A DNA stretch of 57,792 bases from Acidobacteriota bacterium (GTDB lineage: Bacteria; Acidobacteriota; Vicinamibacteria; Vicinamibacterales; UBA2999): contig JAUSDY010000059.1 of assembly GCA_030650395.1 (NCBI GenBank), positions 1-57,792 on the forward strand. The letters run 5' to 3'. This document shows positions 1,541 to 57,792 of this stretch, one piece after another (the stretch's first letter is position 1; each line of letters opens with the position of its first letter). The position numbers were made by a program, and so were the translations under genes. A model generated the notes under the pieces. It did not search any database and was not told the DNA's origin. It was given only the letters and a program-made list of their open reading frames with translations.

Positions 1541-1812
1541 CAGCGAATCTCGAATCCTGTGTCGTGCCCTGTGGGTCCGGTATCGTCCACCGTGACTTGC
1601 GCCACCCGCGCGCCCGAGGGGCCGCGGCGCAGCGCCATCTCAAATCGATCGAGCGCGGCGTCGTCGCCCTCCGCCTGCGCCTCGACCCGTCCGTCCGGCA
1701 AGTTGACGACGTAGCCGTGCAGGCCTTCGCGCCGGGCCGCGTCGAGCGCGAAGAAGCGGAAGCCCACGCCTTGCACGCGTCCGCTCACCAGGAACCGTCT
1801 GGCTACGCGCAT
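1540..1812 (-). CDS. acyP: Acylphosphatase
   Basis: The 90-residue product matches the usual acylphosphatase length and hydrolyses the carboxyl-phosphate bond of acyl phosphates. The phosphate-binding loop GRVQGVGFRFF is at residues 11-21 with the catalytic Arg at 19. The catalytic Asn is in GYVVNLPDGRVE (Asn37). The C-terminus contains GPTGHDTGFEIR, near the usual end of the fold. It is first in a two-gene unit with apt, overlapping by one base. It diverges from the c-di-AMP riboswitch and kimA unit, so about 80 bp between 1812 and 1890 must hold both promoters. Confidence 0.93.
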   Translation of the reverse strand: MRVARRFLVSGRVQGVGFRFFALDAARREGLHGYVVNLPDGRVEAQAEGDDAALDRFEMALRRGPSGARVAQVTVDDTGPTGHDTGFEIR

Positions 1813-1854
1813 CCGCCCATTGTAGCCCAGCCGCGCGCGGCGTGGCCGTGTGGC

Positions 1855-1883
1855 TTGACGCGCTGATTACAGAAGCGCATCAT
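1855..1883 (+). promoter_or_regulatory. Candidate sigma-70-type promoter for the riboswitch-kimA transcript
   Basis: TTGACG at 1855-1860 and CATCAT at 1878-1883 are separated by 17 nt. This would place the transcription start near 1890, directly at the 5' side of the aptamer. The -10 match is only moderate, so this is a position-based inference. Confidence 0.35.
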
Positions 1884-1889
1884 CGTACT

Positions 1890-1995
1890 AGCTGAATCCG
1901 CCACCGGCGGAACGGGGGACCCACTCATCGGGGCGAATCGCGCACGCGACAGAGACCACCACCTCTGAGCCCGACAGCTAACCTCGCAGGCACGT
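1890..1995 (+). promoter_or_regulatory. c-di-AMP riboswitch (ydaO/yuaA type)
   Basis: The conserved blocks of the ydaO aptamer appear in order. They are TGAATCCGCC at 1892-1901, a CCGCC/GGCGG hairpin, AACGGGGGACCCA near 1911-1923, CGGGGCGAATC near 1929-1939, an AGAG/CTCT hairpin, and GCCCGACAGCTAACCTCG near 1969-1986. The last block is the most diagnostic element of the class. The class senses cyclic di-AMP and typically turns off K+ uptake and cell-wall genes when the ligand is high. Here it sits directly upstream of a KimA-type K+ importer. The ribosome binding site GGAGG (1996-2000) abuts the 3' edge of the aptamer, which suggests control of translation initiation. The exact P1 boundaries were not resolved by eye. 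Confidence 0.9.
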
Positions 1996-2005
1996 GGAGG
2001 CTTTG

Positions 2006-3832
2006 TTGTTCGATCTCAAGCGCGCAGTTGTCGGCCGTCCGATCGCCAGTTATCACGCCGATCATCACCGCTTCGGGCTGCTCGGTGGGCTTGCGGTCCT
2101 GTCGTCCGACGCGCTGTCGTCGGTCGCGTACGCGACCGAGGAGATCTTGCGCGTGCTCATGGTCGGCGGCGTCGCCGCGCTGAGCCTCGGGCAACCGGTC
2201 AGCCTCCTGATCGCCACCCTGCTGGTCGTTGTGGTCTTCTCGTATCGCAAGACCATCCACGCATATCCCGGCGGCGGCGGCGCGTACATCGTCGCGAGAG
2301 ACAACCTCGGTCCGACCTTCGGGCTGGCGGCGGCCGCAGCGCTGCTGATCGACTATACCCTCACGGTCGCGGTCAGTATCGCGGCGGGCGTGTCGGCCAT
2401 CGCCTCGGCGCTGCCGTCGATGCATCTCAACCGCGTCGCGCTCAGTCTCGGCTTCATCGCGATGCTGATGATGGGTAATCTGCGCGGGCTGAGAGAGTCG
2501 ACGAAGCTGTTCGGTATCCCGGTGTACGTATTCGTCGGCGTCATGTTGTCGTTGATCGCCGCCGGCGGCTACCAGGTCTTGACGGGATCGGCGGTACCGG
2601 TCGAGCCGGTCGATCCGCTGCCCATATTGGGTACCGGCTCAATCACGCTCTTCGTCCTGCTCTCGGCATTTGCCAACGGCTGCACGGCCATGACCGGCGT
2701 GGAGGCCGTCTCCGACGGCGTGCCGGCGTTCAAGGCGCCGTCGGCGCAGACGGCGACGCGCACGCTGATCCTGATGGCCGTGCTCGCCATCACCATGTTC
2801 GTCGGCATCAGCTTTCTGGCACACGCCTATCAAGTCGTGCCGAGCGAGACGGAGACGGTCGTGTCGCAACTGGCGCGCGGCGTCTTTGGCGGCCGCAACG
2901 CTCTCTACTACATCGTCCAGGCGGCGACGATGCTGATTCTCGTGCTGGCGGCGAACACGGCGTTTGCGGATTTCCCGCGGCTGGCGTCGATCGTGGCGCG
3001 CGATCGCTACATGCCGCGCCAGTTCATGAACCTCGGCGACAAGCTGGCCTTCTCGAACGGCATTGTCGCCCTGAGCGTGGCGGCCGGGGTCCTGTGCGTC
3101 GTCTTCGGCGGCGATCCGCACGCGTTGATCCCGCTCTATATGATCGGTGTGTTCCTGTCGTTCACGCTGTCGCAGACCGGCATGTTCCTGCGGGCACGGC
3201 GGATACGCGAGCCGGGTTGGCAGGTCAGCGCCGCGATCAGCGGGGTCGGCGCCGTGGTGACCTTCGTCGTGTTACTGGTGGTCGCGATGACCAAGGGCCT
3301 GGACGGCGCGTGGATCGTCGTGGTCCTGATTCCCTTGCTGTCGATGCTGTTTCGCTCGACGCGTTCGCATTACGACGCCGTCGCGCGTCAGCTGTCGCTG
3401 TCCGGTAAGACCGTGGATACGACCGCGCGCGGGCACATGGTGATCGTGCCGATCGGCGGCGTGCAGCGGGCGGTGGTCGAGGCGCTCGGCTACGCCAGCT
3501 CGCTGTCGAACGACGTTCGAGCCGTCTACGTCAATGTGTATCCAGACGCGCTGGAAGCGCTCAAACGCGATTGGCCGCACTGGGGCTCGCACGTCAAGCT
3601 GGTGGTGCTGCAGTCGCCCTATCGATCGATGACCGAGCCGCTGCTCGACTACATCGATCGCATGCGGATCGAACATCCTGATGACTACATGACGGTCGTG
3701 CTGCCGGAATTCGTGGTCAAGCACTGGTGGCACCATCTGCTGCACAACCAGAGCGCGCTGACGCTGAAGGCGGCGCTGCTGTTCCGCAAGCGGATCGTGA
3801 CCACGTCGGTGCCGTTCCATCTAGAGGAGTAA
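2006..3832 (+). CDS. kimA: KimA-type potassium importer (APC superfamily), copy 1
   Basis: About 608 residues, like Bacillus KimA (607). The APC-type membrane half begins with LSSDALSSVAYATEE (about residues 33-47) and continues through AYPGGGGAYIVA, LLIDYTLTVAVSIAAG, FANGCTAMTGVEA and VLAANTAFADFPRL, all closely matching KimA. The C-terminal cytosolic domain (from about residue 470) ends in a KHWWHHLLHNQSAL box and VTTSVPFHLEE, as in KimA. KimA is a high-affinity K+/H+ symporter inhibited by c-di-AMP. An upstream in-frame GTG at 1994 lacks an SD and lies in the riboswitch edge. I prefer the TTG at 2006, which has GGAGG 5 nt upstream and aligns with the start of the second copy (MFEELKR). Confidence 0.9.
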   Translation: MFDLKRAVVGRPIASYHADHHRFGLLGGLAVLSSDALSSVAYATEEILRVLMVGGVAALSLGQPVSLLIATLLVVVVFSYRKTIHAYPGGGGAYIVARDNLGPTFGLAAAAALLIDYTLTVAVSIAAGVSAIASALPSMHLNRVALSLGFIAMLMMGNLRGLRESTKLFGIPVYVFVGVMLSLIAAGGYQVLTGSAVPVEPVDPLPILGTGSITLFVLLSAFANGCTAMTGVEAVSDGVPAFKAPSAQTATRTLILMAVLAITMFVGISFLAHAYQVVPSETETVVSQLARGVFGGRNALYYIVQAATMLILVLAANTAFADFPRLASIVARDRYMPRQFMNLGDKLAFSNGIVALSVAAGVLCVVFGGDPHALIPLYMIGVFLSFTLSQTGMFLRARRIREPGWQVSAAISGVGAVVTFVVLLVVAMTKGLDGAWIVVVLIPLLSMLFRSTRSHYDAVARQLSLSGKTVDTTARGHMVIVPIGGVQRAVVEALGYASSLSNDVRAVYVNVYPDALEALKRDWPHWGSHVKLVVLQSPYRSMTEPLLDYIDRMRIEHPDDYMTVVLPEFVVKHWWHHLLHNQSALTLKAALLFRKRIVTTSVPFHLEE

Positions 3833-3851
3833 GCAGAGAGGGGCGTCGCTT

Positions 3852-3866
3852 CCGGTAGAATACCGG
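3852..3866 (+). promoter_or_regulatory. Perfect 6-bp inverted repeat in the kimA1-kimA2 spacer
   Basis: CCGGTA-GAA-TACCGG lies in the 51-nt spacer between the two importers, and its centre contains TAGAAT (3856-3861), a possible -10. It could be a small processing hairpin, an operator or part of a promoter for the second copy. No second riboswitch is visible here. Confidence 0.4.
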
Positions 3867-3883
3867 GTCGTGAGCGGAGCCCT

Positions 3884-5713
3884 GTGTTCGAAGAGCTGAA
3901 GCGGTTCGTCGTCGGCGCCCCCATCCCGTCCTTCCACGCCCACCACCAAAAGCTCGGCATGCTCGCCGGTCTGGCCGTGCTGTCGGCCGACGCCTTGTCG
4001 TCGGTGGCGTACGCGACCGAGGAAGTCCTTCGTGTGCTGGCCCAGGGCGGCGCCGAGGCGCTCCAGAACGGCCCGGTCATCGCGGGCCTGATCGCGCTGC
4101 TGCTCTTGATCATCGTCTCGTCGTACCGGCAAACGATCTTTGCCTACCCGCAAGGCGGCGGCGACTACGTCGTCACCAAGGAGAACATCGGCACGTCGGC
4201 GTCGCTCGTGACGGCCGCCGCCCTGCTGATCGATTACACGCTGACCGTCGCCGTCAGCATTGCCGCCGGCGTGTCGGCGGTCACGTCGGCGCTGCCGAAC
4301 CTGCACGTCGGCCGTGTGCCGATGGCGCTGGCGTTCATCGCGCTGATCGCGATGGGCAACCTGCGCGGTGTTCGGGAATCGGCCAAGCTGTTCGGCATTC
4401 CGGTCTATTTCTTCCTGGGCAGCATCTTTGTGCTGTTGATTGTCGGTGCCTGGCGGGAGTTCTTCGGCACGGCGGCGCCGTTCGAGCCGGCCGAACCGGT
4501 GGCCTTCCTGGGCACCGGCACCATCACGACTTTTATCCTGCTGACGGCATTTGCCAACGGCTGCACCGCGATGACCGGCGTCGAGGCGATTTCTGACGGC
4601 GTGCCGGCGTTCAAGGAGCCGGCCGCGCGCACGGCGGCGCGGACCCTGACGCTGATGGGGGGACTGGCGATCACGATGTTCGTCGGCATCAGCCTGCTGG
4701 CGTACCACTTCGGCATCGTGCCGGCGGAGAAAGAGACCGTGGTCTCGCAGCTGGCGCGCGCGATCTTCGGCGGGCGCAACGTCTTCTATTACCTGGTGCA
4801 GGCGGCGACGGCGATGATCCTGGTGCTCGCCGCGAACACGGCCTTTGCCGACTTCCCCCGCCTCGCCTATTTCGTGGCGCGTGACCGGTTCATGCCCCGG
4901 CAGTTCATGAACCTCGGCGACAAGCTGGCCTACTCGAACGGCATCGTCGCCCTCAGCATCGGCGCGGCGACCTTGATCATCGTGTTCCGTGGCGATCCCC
5001 ACGCCCTCATCCCGCTCTACATGATCGGCGTGTTCATGGCGTTCACCCTGTCGCAGTCGGGCATGTTCCTGCGATGGCGCCGGCTGCGGCCGTCCGGCTG
5101 GCAGTTCCGCGCGATGATCAGCGGCCTCGGCGCCGTGGTCGCGGCCGTGGTGCTGGGCATTGTCGCCGTCACCAAGGCCCTCGAAGGCGCGTGGATCGTC
5201 CTCGTGCTGGTCCCGATTCTGACCTACGTGTTCCGGCAGACGCGCGAGCACTACGACAGCGTGGCGGCGCAGTTGTCGCTTGAGAGTGTCGAAGTCGACA
5301 CGACACCACACGGACATATCGTGATCGTGCCGATCGGCGGCGTGCAGCGGGCGGTGCTCGAGGCGCTGCGCTACGCCAGCTCGCTGGCCAAGGACGTGCG
5401 CGCGGTGTACGTGAACCTGAACCCGGAGTCGCTGGATGCACTCAAGCGCGACTGGCCGCAGTGGGGCTCACACGTGAAGCTGGTGGTGCTGCAGTCGCCC
5501 TATCGATCGATGACCGAGCCGCTGCTCGATTACATCGATCGCATGCAGCGAGAGCACCCGGACGATTACGTGACCGTGATCCTGCCGGAATTTGTCGTGA
5601 AGCACTGGTGGCATCACCTGCTGCACAACCAGAGCGCCCTGACGCTCAAGGCCGCCTTGCTGTTTCGGCCACGCGTGGTGACCACGAGCGTGCCATTTCA
5701 CTTGAAGAAGTGA
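3884..5713 (+). CDS. kimA: KimA-type potassium importer (APC superfamily), copy 2
   Basis: The 609-residue product is a close paralogue of the preceding protein over its whole length. It has the same LSADALSSVAYATEE start, LLIDYTLTVAVSI, FANGCTAMTGVEA, ARDRFMPRQFMNLGDKLAYS and HALIPLYMIGVFMAFTLSQSG blocks, and the same C-terminal domain ending VVTTSVPFHLKK. It should import K+ at the inner membrane. The GTG at 3884 follows a GGAG-like SD (GAGCGGAGC). It is 51 nt downstream of copy 1 on the same strand, so it is probably on the same c-di-AMP-controlled message. Long tracts are nearly identical at the DNA level near the 3' ends, consistent with local tandem duplication followed by divergence. 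Confidence 0.9.
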   Translation: MFEELKRFVVGAPIPSFHAHHQKLGMLAGLAVLSADALSSVAYATEEVLRVLAQGGAEALQNGPVIAGLIALLLLIIVSSYRQTIFAYPQGGGDYVVTKENIGTSASLVTAAALLIDYTLTVAVSIAAGVSAVTSALPNLHVGRVPMALAFIALIAMGNLRGVRESAKLFGIPVYFFLGSIFVLLIVGAWREFFGTAAPFEPAEPVAFLGTGTITTFILLTAFANGCTAMTGVEAISDGVPAFKEPAARTAARTLTLMGGLAITMFVGISLLAYHFGIVPAEKETVVSQLARAIFGGRNVFYYLVQAATAMILVLAANTAFADFPRLAYFVARDRFMPRQFMNLGDKLAYSNGIVALSIGAATLIIVFRGDPHALIPLYMIGVFMAFTLSQSGMFLRWRRLRPSGWQFRAMISGLGAVVAAVVLGIVAVTKALEGAWIVLVLVPILTYVFRQTREHYDSVAAQLSLESVEVDTTPHGHIVIVPIGGVQRAVLEALRYASSLAKDVRAVYVNLNPESLDALKRDWPQWGSHVKLVVLQSPYRSMTEPLLDYIDRMQREHPDDYVTVILPEFVVKHWWHHLLHNQSALTLKAALLFRPRVVTTSVPFHLKK

Positions 5714-5722
5714 CACGGACGT

Positions 5723-5863
5723 TCTTCACGAGGGTTCCTCACGAGGGTTCCTCACGAGGGTTCACTGACGATTCTGAGTGCCGGCTTGACGAACCGTCAG
5801 GAAGAACCCCGGTGAGGAACCTCCGTGGGAACCTCCGTGAGGAACCTCCGTCAGGAACCTTCT
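5723..5863. repeat. Inverted arrays of degenerate GAGGGTTCCTCAC repeats between convergent genes
   Basis: The left arm (5723-5766) repeats CACGAGGGTTCCT. The right arm (about 5805-5863) repeats the complementary AGGAACCTCCGTG with variations. Between them a short TGACG/CGTCA inverted repeat flanks the centre. The array fills the space between the stops of kimA2 and kup and can fold into one long hairpin from either strand, so it may serve as a bidirectional terminator. Confidence 0.75.
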
Positions 5864-7763
5864 AGAGTTCCACCTGCATCCCGATCTCGACGACCCGCTC
5901 GGGCGGAATGCGGTAGAAAGTCGTCGCGCGCAGCGCGTTTCTCGACATCATCACGAACAGCCGCTCGCGCCACAATGGCAGGCCCGGGCGGTCGGTCGCG
6001 AGCAGGGTTTCGGTCCCGAGGAAGTAGGTCGTGTCCGCGGGCACCAGTGGCCCGCCCGCGAACGAGGCCTGGGCGAGGGCGGCCGGCACGTCGGGATCCT
6101 CGGTGAAGCCGTAGCAGATGCGGACGCGGAAAAAACCCAGGCGAAGCGGCGTGACCGTCACGCGGTCGTCGGGCGCCACGACCGGTCCGTCGGTGGTGAC
6201 GACGGTCAACAGGATGACCCGCTGGTGCAGGATCTTGTTGTGTTCCAGGTTATGCAGCAGCGTCGGCGGCGTGCCGTCGGGGTTGCCGGTCATGAAGACC
6301 GCCGCGCCGCTGACTCGATGCGGCGGCTTACTCGTGATGCCGTCGAGGAAGGTCTCGAGCGGGTGGAGCCGATCGACAAACCGCGAGGCCAGCAGCGCGC
6401 GGCCCTGCTTCCAGGTCGACAATGTCAAGTACAGCAGCACCCCGGTCGCCAGCGGGAACCAGCCACCCTCGGCGATCTTGGTGAGATTGGCGGAGAGAAA
6501 ACCGAACTCGATGAACAGGAACAGCGCCGCCACCGAGCCGGCCATTCCGCGACTGACGCCCCAGGAGCCGCGCGCCACCAGGTACGCCAGCATCGTCGTA
6601 ATCACCATCGTCGACGACACCGCGATGCCGTAGGCAGCCGCGAGGGCGCTCGAACTGCCGAAGCCGAGCACCAGTCCCACGGTCGCCACCATCAGCGCCC
6701 AGTTCACTTGCGGAATGTAGATCTGGCCGCGCTGGCTCGCCGAGGTGTGCGCGATCCCCATCCGCGGGCAGTAGCCGAGTTGTATCGCCTGGTGGGTCAA
6801 TGAGAACACGCCGGAGATGAGCGCCTGCGATGCAATCACCGCCGCCATCATCGCCAGGATCACGAGCGGAATCAGCGCCCACGTCGGCGCCATCAGATAA
6901 AACGGCGCCGCGGCTGCCTCGGGCTTGATCAGGAGCATGGCGCCTTGCCCCAGGTAGTTCAGCAGCAGCGCGGGAAACGCCAGCGCGAACCACGCCAGGC
7001 GAATCGGCCGCCGTCCGAAATGCCCCATGTCGGCGTAGAGCGCCTCGCAACCGGTCACCACCAGGAACACGGAACCCAGCACGACGAAGCCGTGCGAGCC
7101 GTTGCGCATGAAGAAGCTCACGGCGTGGACCGGGTTGAACGCCACGATGACGTGTGAATTCAGACGAATCCAGGACAGACCCATCACCGCGATTGTGACG
7201 AACCACACGACCATGATCGGCCCGAACATCGCGCCAACCATGCCGGTGCCGCGCGACTGGATCACGAACAGGCCAATCAGGATGGCGATCGTAATCGCGA
7301 CCACGTAGGGTTGGAAGATCGGCGTGGCGATGGTGAGGCCCTCGACGGCACTGAGGACCGAGATCGCCGGGGTGATCATTCCCTCGCCTGATAGCAGTGC
7401 CGCGCCGAACAGGCCCAGAGCGATCAACCGCGCCCGGCTCTTGCGAGTGGCATCGGGTTGCCGCGAGACGAGCGCCATCAACGCGAGCACACCGCCCTCG
7501 CCGCCGTTGTCGGCGCGCATCACGAAGGTCAGGTACTTGATTGAAACGACCAGGGTGAGCGACCAGAAAATCAGCGACAGCACTCCGAGCACGTTGGCCG
7601 GAGAGGGATCAATGCCGTGAGGACCGTGAAAACACTCCCGCAGCGCGTACAGCGGGCTGGTGCCAATGTCTCCGTAGACAATGCCAATCGCCCCGAGCGT
7701 GAGAACGGCGAGGTCGCGGCCCCGAGGCGCCGGCCTGGCGCCGGCATGACTCGGTGCGCTCAC
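5862..7763 (-). CDS. kup: Kup (KUP/HAK/KT) potassium uptake protein
   Basis: The 633-residue protein matches Kup length (E. coli about 622). The family signature GIVYGDIGTSPLYALRECF occurs at about residues 27-45, followed by RADNGGEGGVLALMAL and LSGEGMITPAISVLSAVEG. About twelve hydrophobic segments precede a C-terminal cytosolic tail ending VVEIGMQVEL. Kup is a low-affinity K+/H+ symporter of the inner membrane. Its ATG overlaps the TGA of the VPS10-like gene upstream by four bases (ATGA), so it is probably co-translated with that unrelated secreted protein. It converges on the two kimA genes, giving three K+ importers in 6 kb. The hairpin array at its 3' end probably terminates it. Confidence 0.95.
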   Translation of the reverse strand: MSAPSHAGARPAPRGRDLAVLTLGAIGIVYGDIGTSPLYALRECFHGPHGIDPSPANVLGVLSLIFWSLTLVVSIKYLTFVMRADNGGEGGVLALMALVSRQPDATRKSRARLIALGLFGAALLSGEGMITPAISVLSAVEGLTIATPIFQPYVVAITIAILIGLFVIQSRGTGMVGAMFGPIMVVWFVTIAVMGLSWIRLNSHVIVAFNPVHAVSFFMRNGSHGFVVLGSVFLVVTGCEALYADMGHFGRRPIRLAWFALAFPALLLNYLGQGAMLLIKPEAAAAPFYLMAPTWALIPLVILAMMAAVIASQALISGVFSLTHQAIQLGYCPRMGIAHTSASQRGQIYIPQVNWALMVATVGLVLGFGSSSALAAAYGIAVSSTMVITTMLAYLVARGSWGVSRGMAGSVAALFLFIEFGFLSANLTKIAEGGWFPLATGVLLYLTLSTWKQGRALLASRFVDRLHPLETFLDGITSKPPHRVSGAAVFMTGNPDGTPPTLLHNLEHNKILHQRVILLTVVTTDGPVVAPDDRVTVTPLRLGFFRVRICYGFTEDPDVPAALAQASFAGGPLVPADTTYFLGTETLLATDRPGLPLWRERLFVMMSRNALRATTFYRIPPERVVEIGMQVEL

Positions 7764-53155: not shown

Positions 53156-55702
53156 ATGAATCTCAACAAGTTCACTGAAAAGGCGCAAGAGGCGGTGGTG
53201 GCATCACCGCAGCTGGCAACCGAATTCAAACATGCCCAAGTCGAGCCCGAGCACCTGCTCGTCGCGCTGGTCGAGCAGGAGGGCGGCGTCGTGCCGACGG
53301 TGCTCCGCAAGATGTCCGTGGACCCCGGCGCGATTGGCCAGACGCTGCGTGCGCACCTCGGCAAGCAGCCGCAGGCCCACGGTGGCTCCGAGCCGCACCT
53401 CTCCCCTCGCATGCGCGTCGTCCTCGACGCGGCCCAGGCCGAAGCCAAGGGGATGCAGGACGAGTACGTCAGCACCGAGCACCTGCTGCTCGGCATTCTG
53501 AGCGAGCCCGGCCGCGCGGTGACGATCGAACAACTCAAGCAGCGCGGCGTCACGCGCGAGCGCGTGCTCGAAGCGCTGGCCGGCGTGCGCGGCAGCCAGC
53601 GCGTCACCGATCCGAACCCCGAGAACAAGTACGAGGCGCTCGAGAAGTACGGCCGCGACCTCACGGAGCTGGCCCGCAAGGGCAAGCTCGACCCGGTGAT
53701 CGGACGCGACGAAGAAGTCCGCCGCGTCATCCAGGTCCTGTCACGCCGCACCAAGAACAACCCCGTGCTGATCGGCGAACCCGGCGTCGGCAAGACTGCC
53801 ATCGTCGAAGGCCTTGCCCAGCGCATCATCCGCGGCGACGTGCCGGAAGGCCTCAAAGACAAGCGCATCGTGACGCTCGACATGGGGTCGCTCATTGCGG
53901 GCGCGAAGTACCGCGGCGAGTTCGAAGATCGGCTGAAAGCGGTGCTCAAGGAAGTGGTCGATTCCGAGGGGCAGGTGGTGCTCTTCATCGACGAGCTTCA
54001 TACCGTCGTGGGCGCCGGCGCGGCCGAAGGCTCGATGGATGCCTCGAACATGTTGAAGCCGATGCTGGCACGCGGCGAGCTGCACACGATCGGCGCGACC
54101 ACGCTCGATGAATATCGCAAGTACATCGAGAAGGACGCCGCGCTCGAACGCCGGTTCCAGCCCGTGATGGTCGGCGAGCCCACGGTCGAAGACACCATCA
54201 GCATCCTGCGCGGGTTGCGCGAACGCTACGAGGTGCATCACGGCGTCAAGTTCAAGGACGCGGCGCTGGTCGCGGCGGCGGTGATGTCGCATCGCTACAT
54301 CACAGACCGGTTCCTGCCCGACAAGGCGATCGACCTGATTGACGAGGCGGCGTCAAAGCTGCGAATGGAGATCGACTCGATGCCCGTGGAGCTGGACGAG
54401 ATCCAGCGCCGCATCATGCAGCTCGAGATCGAGCGCGAGGCGCTTCGCAAGGAACGGGACAAGGCGTCGAAAGAGCGGCTGGCAAAACTCGAGAAGGAGC
54501 TGGCGGACCTCAAGGAGCAATCGACCGAGCTCAGGTCTCACTGGGAACAGGAGAAGGACGCGATCCAGGCCGGCCGCAAGCTGAAGGAAGAGCTCGAACA
54601 GGTGCGCCTTGAAGTCGAGCGCGCACAGCGCTCGGGCGACTACGCCAAAGCTTCAGAGCTGCAGTACGGGCGCGCGCCGGATCTCGATGCCAAGATCAAG
54701 GAGCAGGAAGCGCGCTTGCAGACGCTGCAGCAAGCCAAGAGCATGCTGAAGGAAGAAGTCGACGAAGAAGACATCGCGCACGTGGTCGGCAAGTGGACCG
54801 GTATTCCGGTCACCCGGTTGATGGAAGGCGAAGTGCAAAAGCTGCTCAAGATGGAAGAGCGGCTGCACCAGCGCGTGGTCGGTCAGGAAGAGGCGATCCG
54901 CGCGGTCGCCAACGCGATTCGCCGCGCGCGCGCCGGACTGCAAGATCCCAATCGGCCGCTCGGCAGCTTCATCTTCCTCGGGCCCACGGGTGTCGGCAAG
55001 ACCGAGCTCGCCCGCGCGCTGGCCGAGTTCATGTTCGATTCAGAGCAGGCCATGGTCCGCATCGACATGTCGGAATACGGCGAGAAGCACAGCGTCTCGA
55101 GGATGATCGGCGCGCCACCCGGCTACGTTGGCTACGACGAGGCCGGACAACTGACCGAAGCGATCCGCCGCCGCCCCTACTCTGTTGTGCTGTTCGATGA
55201 AATTGAAAAGGCGCATCCCGAGGTCCTCAACGTCCTGCTCCAGCTGCTGGACGATGGCCGGCTCACCGACGGCAAGGGCCGGGTGGTGGACTTCACCAAT
55301 ACCGTCGTGGTGATGACCTCGAACATCCAGAACCAGGAATCGCTGCGCGCGCATTTCCGGCCCGAGTTCATCAATCGCATCGACGACATCATTTACTTCC
55401 ACGCGCTCGACCAGCAGCACATCAGGCAGATCGTGGAAATCCAGCTGCGCGGCCTGCTGAGGCGGCTCGAGGATCGCAAGATCAAGATCCAGCTCACGGA
55501 TGCGGCGAAGGATTTCCTGGTGCGCGAGGGGTATGATCCGATCTACGGTGCCCGCCCGTTGAAGCGGGCGCTGCAGCGCCGGCTGCTCGACCCGCTGGCG
55601 CTCAAGGTGCTTGACGGCGCGTTCCACGACGGCGACACGGTGGCCGTCGATGCCGGGCGCGACGAGTTGAAGTTCGAGAAAGGCCAGACGGTCAATGCCT
55701 AG
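53156..55702 (+). CDS. clpB: ClpB ATP-dependent protein disaggregase
   Basis: The 848-residue product has the Clp_N double repeat (residues 1-145), then AAA+ domain 1 with Walker A GEPGVGKT at 207-214 and [20 protein letters not shown]. The coiled-coil M domain (about 400-530) has [23 protein letters not shown]+ domain 2 has Walker A GPTGVGKT at 609-616, [22 protein letters not shown] and RPLKRALQR. ClpB extracts aggregated polypeptides with DnaK/J help, and the J-protein is directly upstream. The stop overlaps ftsH by 8 nt, so a quality-control operon is likely. Confidence 0.96.
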
Positions 55703-57590
55703 CTCCTCAGTGCCTCCGGGCGGATCTCAGAAGGGACGCCCGTCGGCGACCAAGCCTGCCGCATTGTGGTGGGTGCTCGGCGCGTTAATGCTGCTGGCGA
55801 TCGGCCAGGCGTACTTCCTGGCTCCCGCGGGAAAACAGATCTCGTACAGCGAGTTCAAGGGACTGGTGCGCGGCGGCCAGGTCGCCGAGGTCGCTGTCGG
55901 CGACACGATCATTCACGGCACGCTCAAGAAACCGGAAGAAGGCGTGGCCGGGTTTACCACCACGCGCATTGAAGATCCCAAGCTGGTCGAAGAGCTCGAC
56001 GAAGCCGGCGTGAAATACAGCGGCGAGCTCGTGAGCCGCTGGCTGCCCGAGGTGCTCGGCTGGGTCGTTCCCCTTCTGCTGCTCGTTGCGCTGTGGTCGT
56101 TCTTCTTCAAGCGCATGGGCGGCGCCGAGGGCGGCGTGATGTCGTTTGCCCGGAGCAAGGCGAAGATCTACGCCGAAGACGACGTCAAGACGACGTTCCA
56201 GGATGTCGCCGGCGTCGACGAAGCGGCACAGGAACTGCGCGAGATCGTCGAGTTCCTGAAGACCCCGAAGAAATTCACCAACCTGGGCGGCCACATTCCG
56301 AAAGGTGTGTTGCTGGTAGGCCCGCCGGGCACCGGCAAGACGCTGCTGGCGCGCGCGGTCGCCGGCGAAGCCAAGGTGCCCTTCTTCAGCCTGAGCGGCT
56401 CGGAATTTGTCGAGATGTTCGTCGGCGTGGGCGCGGCGCGCGTCCGCGATCTGTTCGCGCAGGCCGAAGCGAAAGCGCCGTGCATCGTGTTCATCGACGA
56501 GCTCGACGCGCTCGGGAAGGCCCGCCAGCAAAGCGCGTTCGGCGGCCATGAAGAGCGCGAGCAGACGCTCAACCAGCTGCTCGCCGAAATGGACGGCTTC
56601 GACGCGCGCAAGGCCATCATCATCATGGCGGCCACCAACCGCCCCGAGGTGCTCGACCCGGCGTTGATGCGGCCCGGGCGATTCGATCGGCAGGTGCTGG
56701 TCGACAAGCCTGACGTGAAGGGCCGCGAAGAGGTCCTCAAGATCCACGTTCGCAATGTGAAGCTCGACCCGGCGATCGACCTGCGCAAGGTCGCCGCGCG
56801 GACCGCCGGCTTTGCCGGCGCCGACCTGGCCAACCTCGTGAACGAGGCGGCGTTGCTCGCGGCCCGCCGCGACGCCCAGGTCGTGCAGATGCGCGACTTT
56901 GACGAGGCGATCGATCGGCTGATTGCCGGCCTCGAGAAAAAGCGCGTGATGAGCACGAAGGAACGCGAAATCGTCGCGTACCACGAATCGGGTCATGCCA
57001 TCGTCGCCAGCGTGCTGCCCAACATGGATCCGGTCCACAAGATCTCGATCGTCGCGCGCGGCTTCGGCGCGCTCGGCTACACCATGCAGCTGCCGCTCGA
57101 AGACAAGTACCTGATGCAGAAGGGCGACCTGCTCGCCCAGCTCGCCATCCTGCTGGGCGGCCGCGCCGCTGAAGAAATCGCGATCGGCGAAATTTCCACG
57201 GGCGCCCAGAACGACCTGCAACGCGTGACCGACATCGCGCGCTCGATGGTCACCGAATGGGGCATGAGCGAGCGGCTCGGCACGATCAACTTCGACACGT
57301 CGCGGCGCGGGCGGTTCCTCGATCTCGGCATACCCTCTGAGCGCGGCCTGTATAGCGAAGACACGGCCCGGATGATCGACGACGAGGTCAAGCAGATCAT
57401 CAACAGCGCGCTGAACGAGGCCCGCCGCGTCTTACGCGATCGCCGCGACATCCTCGAACGCGTCACCCGCCGCCTGCTCGAAAAAGAAGTGATGGAAGGC
57501 GACGAGCTGCGTGCAATCATGCTCGGAACCCCAGACCCCCCGCCTGAACCGGCGCCCGAACCTGCCCCCGAACCCCTGCGCTTAACGTAG
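55695..57590 (+). CDS. ftsH: FtsH ATP-dependent zinc metalloprotease
   Basis: The 631-residue protein has two TM helices (about residues 23-41, and 116-134 in [19 protein letters not shown]) enclosing an extracytoplasmic domain. The AAA+ domain has Walker A GPPGTGKT at 209-216, Walker [11 protein letters not shown], and [13 protein letters not shown] (SRH). The protease zinc motif is HESGH (430-434). FtsH degrades misfolded or short-lived membrane and soluble proteins. The C-terminus is Pro/Glu repeat-rich ([11 protein letters not shown]). It ends ACG-TAG, and the stop lies in a repeat. ClpB and FtsH are co-translated. Confidence 0.96.
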
Positions 57591-57659: not shown

Positions 57660-57792
57660 GTGGAGTAGACCCCAGTCTGTCGTACACAACGTGCAGACCA
57701 GCGGCCCCTCGTCAAACCGTACGTGCGGATTTCCCGCATACGGCTTCCCGCGACGTTCACCGCACACCGCGTGCGGTATAGCGCTCGTTGTG
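57660..57792 (-). mobile_element. 3' end of a group II intron (domains 5 and 6), extends beyond the window
   Basis: On the minus strand, domain 5 is at about 57747-57714: AGCCGTATGCGG, a GAAA-type tetraloop, then CCGCACGTACGGTTT. It has the AGC triad and the A-C-G bulge region typical of the 34-nt domain 5. A domain-6-like hairpin (GTCTG/CAGAC near 57697-57674) follows. The sequence ends CTACTCCAC at 57660, fitting the AY/AC 3' splice end of group II introns. An intron-encoded protein would lie further right on the minus strand, outside the window. The 5' end is not present. The exon downstream is the ftsH 3' region. Confidence 0.8.

Follow-up and report, generated by a model that had tools for sequence, protein, structure and literature searches.

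The window analysed here, a stretch of 57,792 nucleotides (nt) from contig JAUSDY010000059.1 of the Vicinamibacterales assembly GCA_030650395.1, carries an aptamer for cyclic di-AMP (c-di-AMP) directly upstream of two tandem genes for KimA-type potassium importers. The Shine-Dalgarno (SD) sequence of the first of these genes, kimA1, coincides with the predicted 3' strand of the aptamer pseudoknot, so that a separate expression platform appears to be absent at kimA1. We are fairly confident that the element acts as a translational OFF switch, a c-di-AMP riboswitch that would repress kimA1 without such a platform; the architecture can be read from the sequence, and from it we infer the response to the ligand. 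In riboswitch class and in potassium importer target the element is ordinary, since both are already known. The novelty, as far as our searches reach, lies in a lineage-wide variant whose aptamer includes the SD as one of its strands.

A covariance-model search placed RF00379 at 1880-2006 on the plus strand, with 67.5 bits against a gathering cut-off of 38 (E 1.5e-13, model positions 1-134 of 134), and this was the only match at E <= 0.001 in the whole 5.4 Mb assembly. An earlier note on this DNA had proposed a c-di-AMP aptamer ahead of the first of two KimA-like importers, with a Kup beyond them and no aptamer belonging to the second kimA copy. This layout was borne out: the aptamer scores above the cut-off, both genes encode full-length KimA homologues, the Kup gene is convergent to them, and no RF00379 match is found at the second copy. 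The apparent lack of a separate expression platform had not been noticed there. For both open reading frames (ORFs), KimA (6s3k, 8b70, 8b71) is the sole distinct PDB sequence at E <= 0.001 (E 1e-153 and 3e-162), with 44% and 46% identity. The features of the locus are as follows.

1855-1883, plus strand: putative kimA1 promoter, with -35 TTGACG at 1855-1860, a 17-nt spacer and -10 CATCAT at 1878-1883
1880-2006, plus strand: RF00379 c-di-AMP aptamer, with the P1 5' arm from 1890 and the P1 3' arm to about 1992
1950-1967, plus strand: aptamer hairpin with arms CAGAG and CTCTG; its loop ACCACCAC (1955-1962) is the predicted pseudoknot 5' strand
1994-2000, plus strand: kimA1 SD, GTGGAGG, which is also the predicted pseudoknot 3' strand
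2006-3832, plus strand: kimA1, KimA-type K+/H+ importer, 608 amino acids, TTG start (TTG at 2003 possible)
3856-3861, plus strand: -10-like TAGAAT before kimA2, from sequence; TAGAAT or TACAAT lies at about the same place in two orthologous loci
3884-5713, plus strand: kimA2, KimA-type importer, 609 amino acids, GTG start, without aptamer
5862-7763, minus strand: kup, K+ importer, convergent to kimA2, with no aptamer for it in the assembly

The likely start of kimA1 is the TTG at 2006, which lines up with the GTG that opens kimA2. A mechanical ORF list gives the GTG at 1994 as the start; this codon falls within the SD. Upstream of the aptamer lie divergent genes for an acylphosphatase and apt.

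Loop nucleotides 1956-1962 can pair with the SD at 1994-2000 in six of seven positions, which is a measure of pairing potential and not of structure. Only 1-2 nt separate the SD from the end of the P1 3' arm, and the TTG codon lies 5 nt beyond the SD. We examined the corresponding loops and tails at all 60 RF00379 matches in the order, the window's own included. These come from 53 of the 162 order genomes, and one of them (G110) is under the cut-off; searches over more than 40 genomes used stricter filters, with which weak matches are lost. Loop and tail vary together, as in CUUCCAA with UUGGAAG or UUGGAGG, CUUCCG with CGGAAG, and ACUCCA with UGGAGU. Over the 60 loci, matched loops and tails scored 15.85, whereas permuted ones averaged 14.08 (standard deviation 0.20); not one of 20,000 permutations came up to the matched value, and the outcome was again 0 of 20,000 with one entry kept for each of 19 loop types. 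The window's loop pairs better with its own tail than with any of the 59 others, and comparison with the congener L097 reveals a C-G to U-A exchange within the pseudoknot helix. Position by position, with anchors chosen without regard to pairing and 59 of the 60 rows used (L146, which has no CC, was dropped), the position 5' of GG was paired in 55 of 57 rows (A-T 35, G-C 17, G-T 3; shuffle maximum 51); at the +3 position, 56 of 58 rows were paired (T-A 34, T-G 12, C-G 10; shuffle maximum 55). An earlier look outside the order, in which 12 of 25 loci were parsed and several were misoriented, gave 3 of 20,000 permutations reaching the matched score.

The pseudoknot as such belongs to the known aptamer; the difference here lies in its tail, which doubles as the SD. 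The same loop/tail complement is present in the solved ydaO aptamer, which we take to be that of Thermoanaerobacter pseudethanolicus. Its sequence (4QLM/4QLN), printed in PMC5393176, where a pseudoknot is mentioned, gives a loop/tail duplex of -14.1 kcal/mol.

This placement of the tail prevails in the order. In 52 of the 60 order loci an ORF opens with a start codon 3-12 nt downstream of the pseudoknot helix, compared with 4, 7 and 4 of 60 in controls shifted by 20, 40 and 60 nt. By homology, the genes that follow the 60 aptamers are kimA (22), kup (18), a gene for a 740-amino-acid AA_permease_2 protein (14), Band_7 (5) and one other (L117). Pfam was run on four representatives and on the L117 protein, and the latter had no Pfam match. 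The eight unfused loci are of several kinds. L119 and L128 keep the loop/tail pairing and carry an intrinsic-terminator-like hairpin before the gene; L096, L099, L105 and L107 have a longer spacer; the kup frame of L135 looks broken; and L111 is the eighth. At L111, kup reads in frame from a CTG, an apparent CTG start. Start codons after the order aptamers are mostly GTG (GTG 36, ATG 8 and TTG 3 of 47 scored), a tally that covers 47 of the 60 loci and leaves out L095, L101, L109, L126 and L117.

Across the phylum, a search of 396 genomes found RF00379 in 67, with 71 matches outside the order. Sixty-seven of these 71 loci could be scored, L203, L207, L209 and L212 being dropped for lack of the core motif. 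Only two of the 67 Acidobacteria loci were fused (L225, of the same class, and L230); the shifted controls gave 7, 5 and 5 of 67, above that figure, and the two fusions may be due to chance. By a loose criterion, 47 of the 67 carried a terminator-like hairpin. Within the order the same criterion matched at 14 loci, 12 of them SD-fused with the match inside the coding region, and only at L119 and L128 did it fall in the stretch from aptamer to gene. Given how loosely the criterion selects, the figure of 47 of 67 is probably too high.

A promoter scan of 1750-5900 returned two promoter-like sites (shuffles mean 0.4), among which TTGACG-17-CATCAT scores 9 of 12 matches. Its distance from P1 is that of the -35 and -10 peaks at the order's other aptamers: at 33 of 58 loci a TANNNT starts between 18 and 9 nt ahead of P1, whereas four windows farther upstream gave 0, 4, 0 and 6 of 58, and matches resembling the -35 TTGACA are most frequent at -36/-37. 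In this count L113 and L151 were dropped, and the P1 motif anchor seems misplaced in a few rows, e.g. L124 and L125. As the promoter ends at the aptamer, the leader should be about the length of the aptamer, that is, aptamer plus SD. No terminator-like site was found on the plus strand in 1750-5900, and the aptamer adjoins the SD, without the intrinsic terminator between aptamer and gene that marks a terminator-type expression platform.

From this arrangement the following course of events may be proposed. Transcription would start at or just before P1 and give a leader consisting of aptamer and SD. When c-di-AMP is abundant, as in potassium sufficiency, the loop 1955-1962 of the closed aptamer would pair with the SD at 1994-2000, and the paired SD, together with P1 lying 1-2 nt upstream, would keep the 30S subunit off. 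When c-di-AMP falls, pseudoknot and P1 would open and the SD would be freed. kimA2 would have its own transcription and translation, and any limit that c-di-AMP sets on it would lie at the protein. It seems probable to us that ligand and ribosome compete for one and the same set of seven nucleotides in completed mRNAs, and that kimA2 stands outside this RNA layer and is subject to inhibition at the protein level only. Blocking mRNA that is already present, and doing so reversibly, would be well suited to rapid control of potassium.

Several observations weigh against an OFF switch of this kind. The window's helix contains an A1958/A1998 mismatch, and across the order the covariation is confined to two helix positions: the GG pairs are invariant, pairing at +2 (55 of 59 rows, the other 4 being A/A) and at -2 (36 of 54) does not exceed that in shuffles, and the -3 position is represented by just 3 rows. 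The permutations and shuffles ignore the kinship of the loci, which the type-level test corrects in part only. The predicted loop:SD duplex of the window (-7.3 kcal/mol) is weaker than that of the SD with an anti-SD octamer (-9.3 kcal/mol), so that pairing with the loop is not enough by itself to win against the ribosome; by duplex energies, the loop is the stronger partner in 36 of the 60 order loci. CATCAT is a poor -10 that falls outside the TANNNT pattern. The pseudoknot could also be independent of the ligand. Finally, the assembly, whose estimated completeness is 98.4%, has no match to the diadenylate cyclase domain DAC (PF02457), and none to the 7TM-7TMR_HD domain of PgpH-type proteins, for which the congeners were not checked.

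A different account of the same architecture is that the pseudoknot is purely structural and overlaps the SD by convenience, regulation resting instead on P1 closing next to the SD, or on Rho-dependent termination of mRNA that is left untranslated. The P1 helix of the window does end 1-2 nt before the SD, and loop/tail pairing is also present at terminator-like loci (L119, L128 and many outside the order), whose tail does not sit at SD distance from a start. We nevertheless regard this account as improbable, because the tail lies at SD distance from a start in 52 of the 60 order loci vs 2 of the 67 outside, and because the same arrangement precedes kimA, kup, permease and Band_7 genes, for which an incidental origin is unlikely. 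An ON switch, with CCUC at 1982-1985 pairing with GAGG at 1997-2000, was also considered; the CCUC is part of the aptamer fold, and the Corynebacterium glutamicum switch is an OFF switch. The CCUC strand is nearly invariant, so covariation cannot test that pairing.

The missing cyclase raises the alternative that c-di-AMP synthesis has been lost, leaving the aptamer as a relic or as a sensor of something else, and the absence of both PF02457 and 7TM-7TMR_HD from so complete an assembly speaks for it. A DAC match is present, however, in all eight congeners and in 151 of the 162 order genomes, and a lineage-wide loss was rejected. In the five of the eight congeners that were examined for gene order, tilS, ftsH, folP, cdaA, cdaR and glmM are contiguous. 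The neighbours of cdaA in this tilS-glmM block are usually essential. In our assembly the syntenic tilS, ftsH, folP, cdaA and glmM were not found (cdaR was not searched as a protein): the best glmM is a 27% relative only, TilS reaches only 29% over 160 amino acids, and Pterin_bind matches only in a 1249-amino-acid frame that we read as MetH. When 10 kb of a congener's cdaA region was compared with the assembly, the one long DNA match was to an FtsH paralogue, 47% identical. The gene for this FtsH, which lies in the window (55695-57590), was rejected as a marker of the cdaA locus, being a clpB-linked paralogue. Because so many usually essential cdaA neighbours are absent too, the absence of the cyclase points to an assembly gap; the loop/SD pairing is moreover intact in the window, and we think a loss of synthesis very improbable. 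The earlier note had held that a genome without a diadenylate cyclase would speak against its proposal. Taken literally, that is what the assembly contains, but with the cdaA neighbours also absent and DAC in 8/8 congeners we do not take it as a refutation. Just after the clpB-linked ftsH paralogue, at 57660-57748 on the minus strand, there is a match to the group II intron family RF00029 (50.3 bits), 44 nt from the contig end.

The preferred reading of a translational OFF switch probably extends to kimA1 only. KimA1 and KimA2 are 71% identical, and their genes lie on the same strand with a gap of 51 nt. That gap, and a promoter scan showing no site between the two genes, would fit a single message on which both are switched together. 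We consider this unlikely, and a shared message was not kept as the default, since comparison with relatives speaks rather for a promoter of kimA2's own. The tree places KimA1 with copies of the congeners G078 and G081 (98/96), and KimA2 with those of G083 and G077 (100/100). Two KimA2-type loci (L234 and L235) have no RF00379 match; they stand alone upstream of a convergent kup and, like kimA2, have TAGAAT or TACAAT shortly before the GTG start. kimA2 also has its own GGAG at 3876-3879. An aptamer-free KimA2 clade with a -10 motif of its own suggests that only kimA1 is under RNA control. The earlier note's picture of a whole potassium uptake locus under c-di-AMP is accordingly too broad as stated: the aptamer adjoins only the kimA1 SD, kimA2 belongs to the aptamer-free clade, and kup is convergent and lacks an aptamer.

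Among the nine genomes of the genus, two adjacent kimA copies were found only in that of the window (E <= 1e-40). G081 has two kimA genes, each immediately preceded by an aptamer, on separate contigs, and two genus genomes have none at the same threshold. At the kimA1 locus of G078 (L236 / L040), which gave no RF00379 match, the promoter and SD region are kept and a short GC-rich stretch stands in place of the aptamer body, on this evidence a natural aptamer loss. The interval between the convergent kimA2 and kup genes (5713-5864) holds a cluster of repeats spaced by 12-13 nt that folds as one long hairpin (-89.4 kcal/mol, z -7.7 vs shuffles), perhaps a two-way terminator.

Both proteins may in addition be inhibited directly by c-di-AMP. 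PMC10284832 names D36, Y43, T230 and Y377 as the potassium site of KimA and R337, V457, L461, P479, V506, H579, N580, Q581 and S582 as c-di-AMP contacts, and all 13 of these residues are identical in KimA1 and KimA2. Of the residues on the cooperativity path, F565, I569, R587 and W592 differ in both copies, and F568 and S582 are kept.

By comparing relatives, these data bear on the possible mechanism of translational c-di-AMP riboswitches, for which the report on C. glutamicum offers a hypothesis only. They also set up a contrast inside one phylum, with SD-in-aptamer loci within the order and terminator-like platforms outside it, and they point to natural experiments in L236, where the aptamer body is gone and the promoter and SD region are kept, and in the tandem kimA copy without an aptamer. 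A literature search over titles and opening abstracts, with subscription papers mostly outside it, returned no lineage-wide c-di-AMP design with the SD in the aptamer, which does not settle priority.

One of the closest known systems is the Bacillus subtilis ydaO/kimA riboswitch, with the same aptamer class, a potassium importer target and the same expected OFF logic. According to PMC9960051 it acts by an intrinsic terminator, whereas here there is no terminator and no spacer, and the SD lies in the pseudoknot. The kdp riboswitch of Bacillus thuringiensis likewise places a potassium importer under RF00379, but with an intrinsic terminator and a 370-nt leader (PMC6488665), in contrast to a leader of about aptamer length. 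A further one is C. glutamicum nlpC, for which PMC9960051 reports, from reporter assays, translational control by a c-di-AMP riboswitch, expression being lower when c-di-AMP is high, and hypothesizes that a CTCC of the RNA pairs with the GGAG of the ribosome-binding site (RBS) as a pseudoknot. There the target is a cell-wall peptidase and the pairing is hypothetical, while here the pairing covaries over 60 loci, mostly before potassium importers. A review (PMC10907184) lists ydaO among 'interdomain docking' riboswitches, in which the aptamer-ligand complex occludes the RBS; in that group the aptamer is separate from the regulatory sequence, and the passage in question gives no ydaO lineage, sequence or covariation. 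The listing makes the general idea less novel. In S-adenosylmethionine/S-adenosylhomocysteine (SAM/SAH) and prequeuosine-1 (preQ1) riboswitches, one strand of the knot is formed by the SD. These are described as pseudoknotted aptamers; their knots are small, whereas the aptamer here exceeds 100 nt and has two ligand sites.

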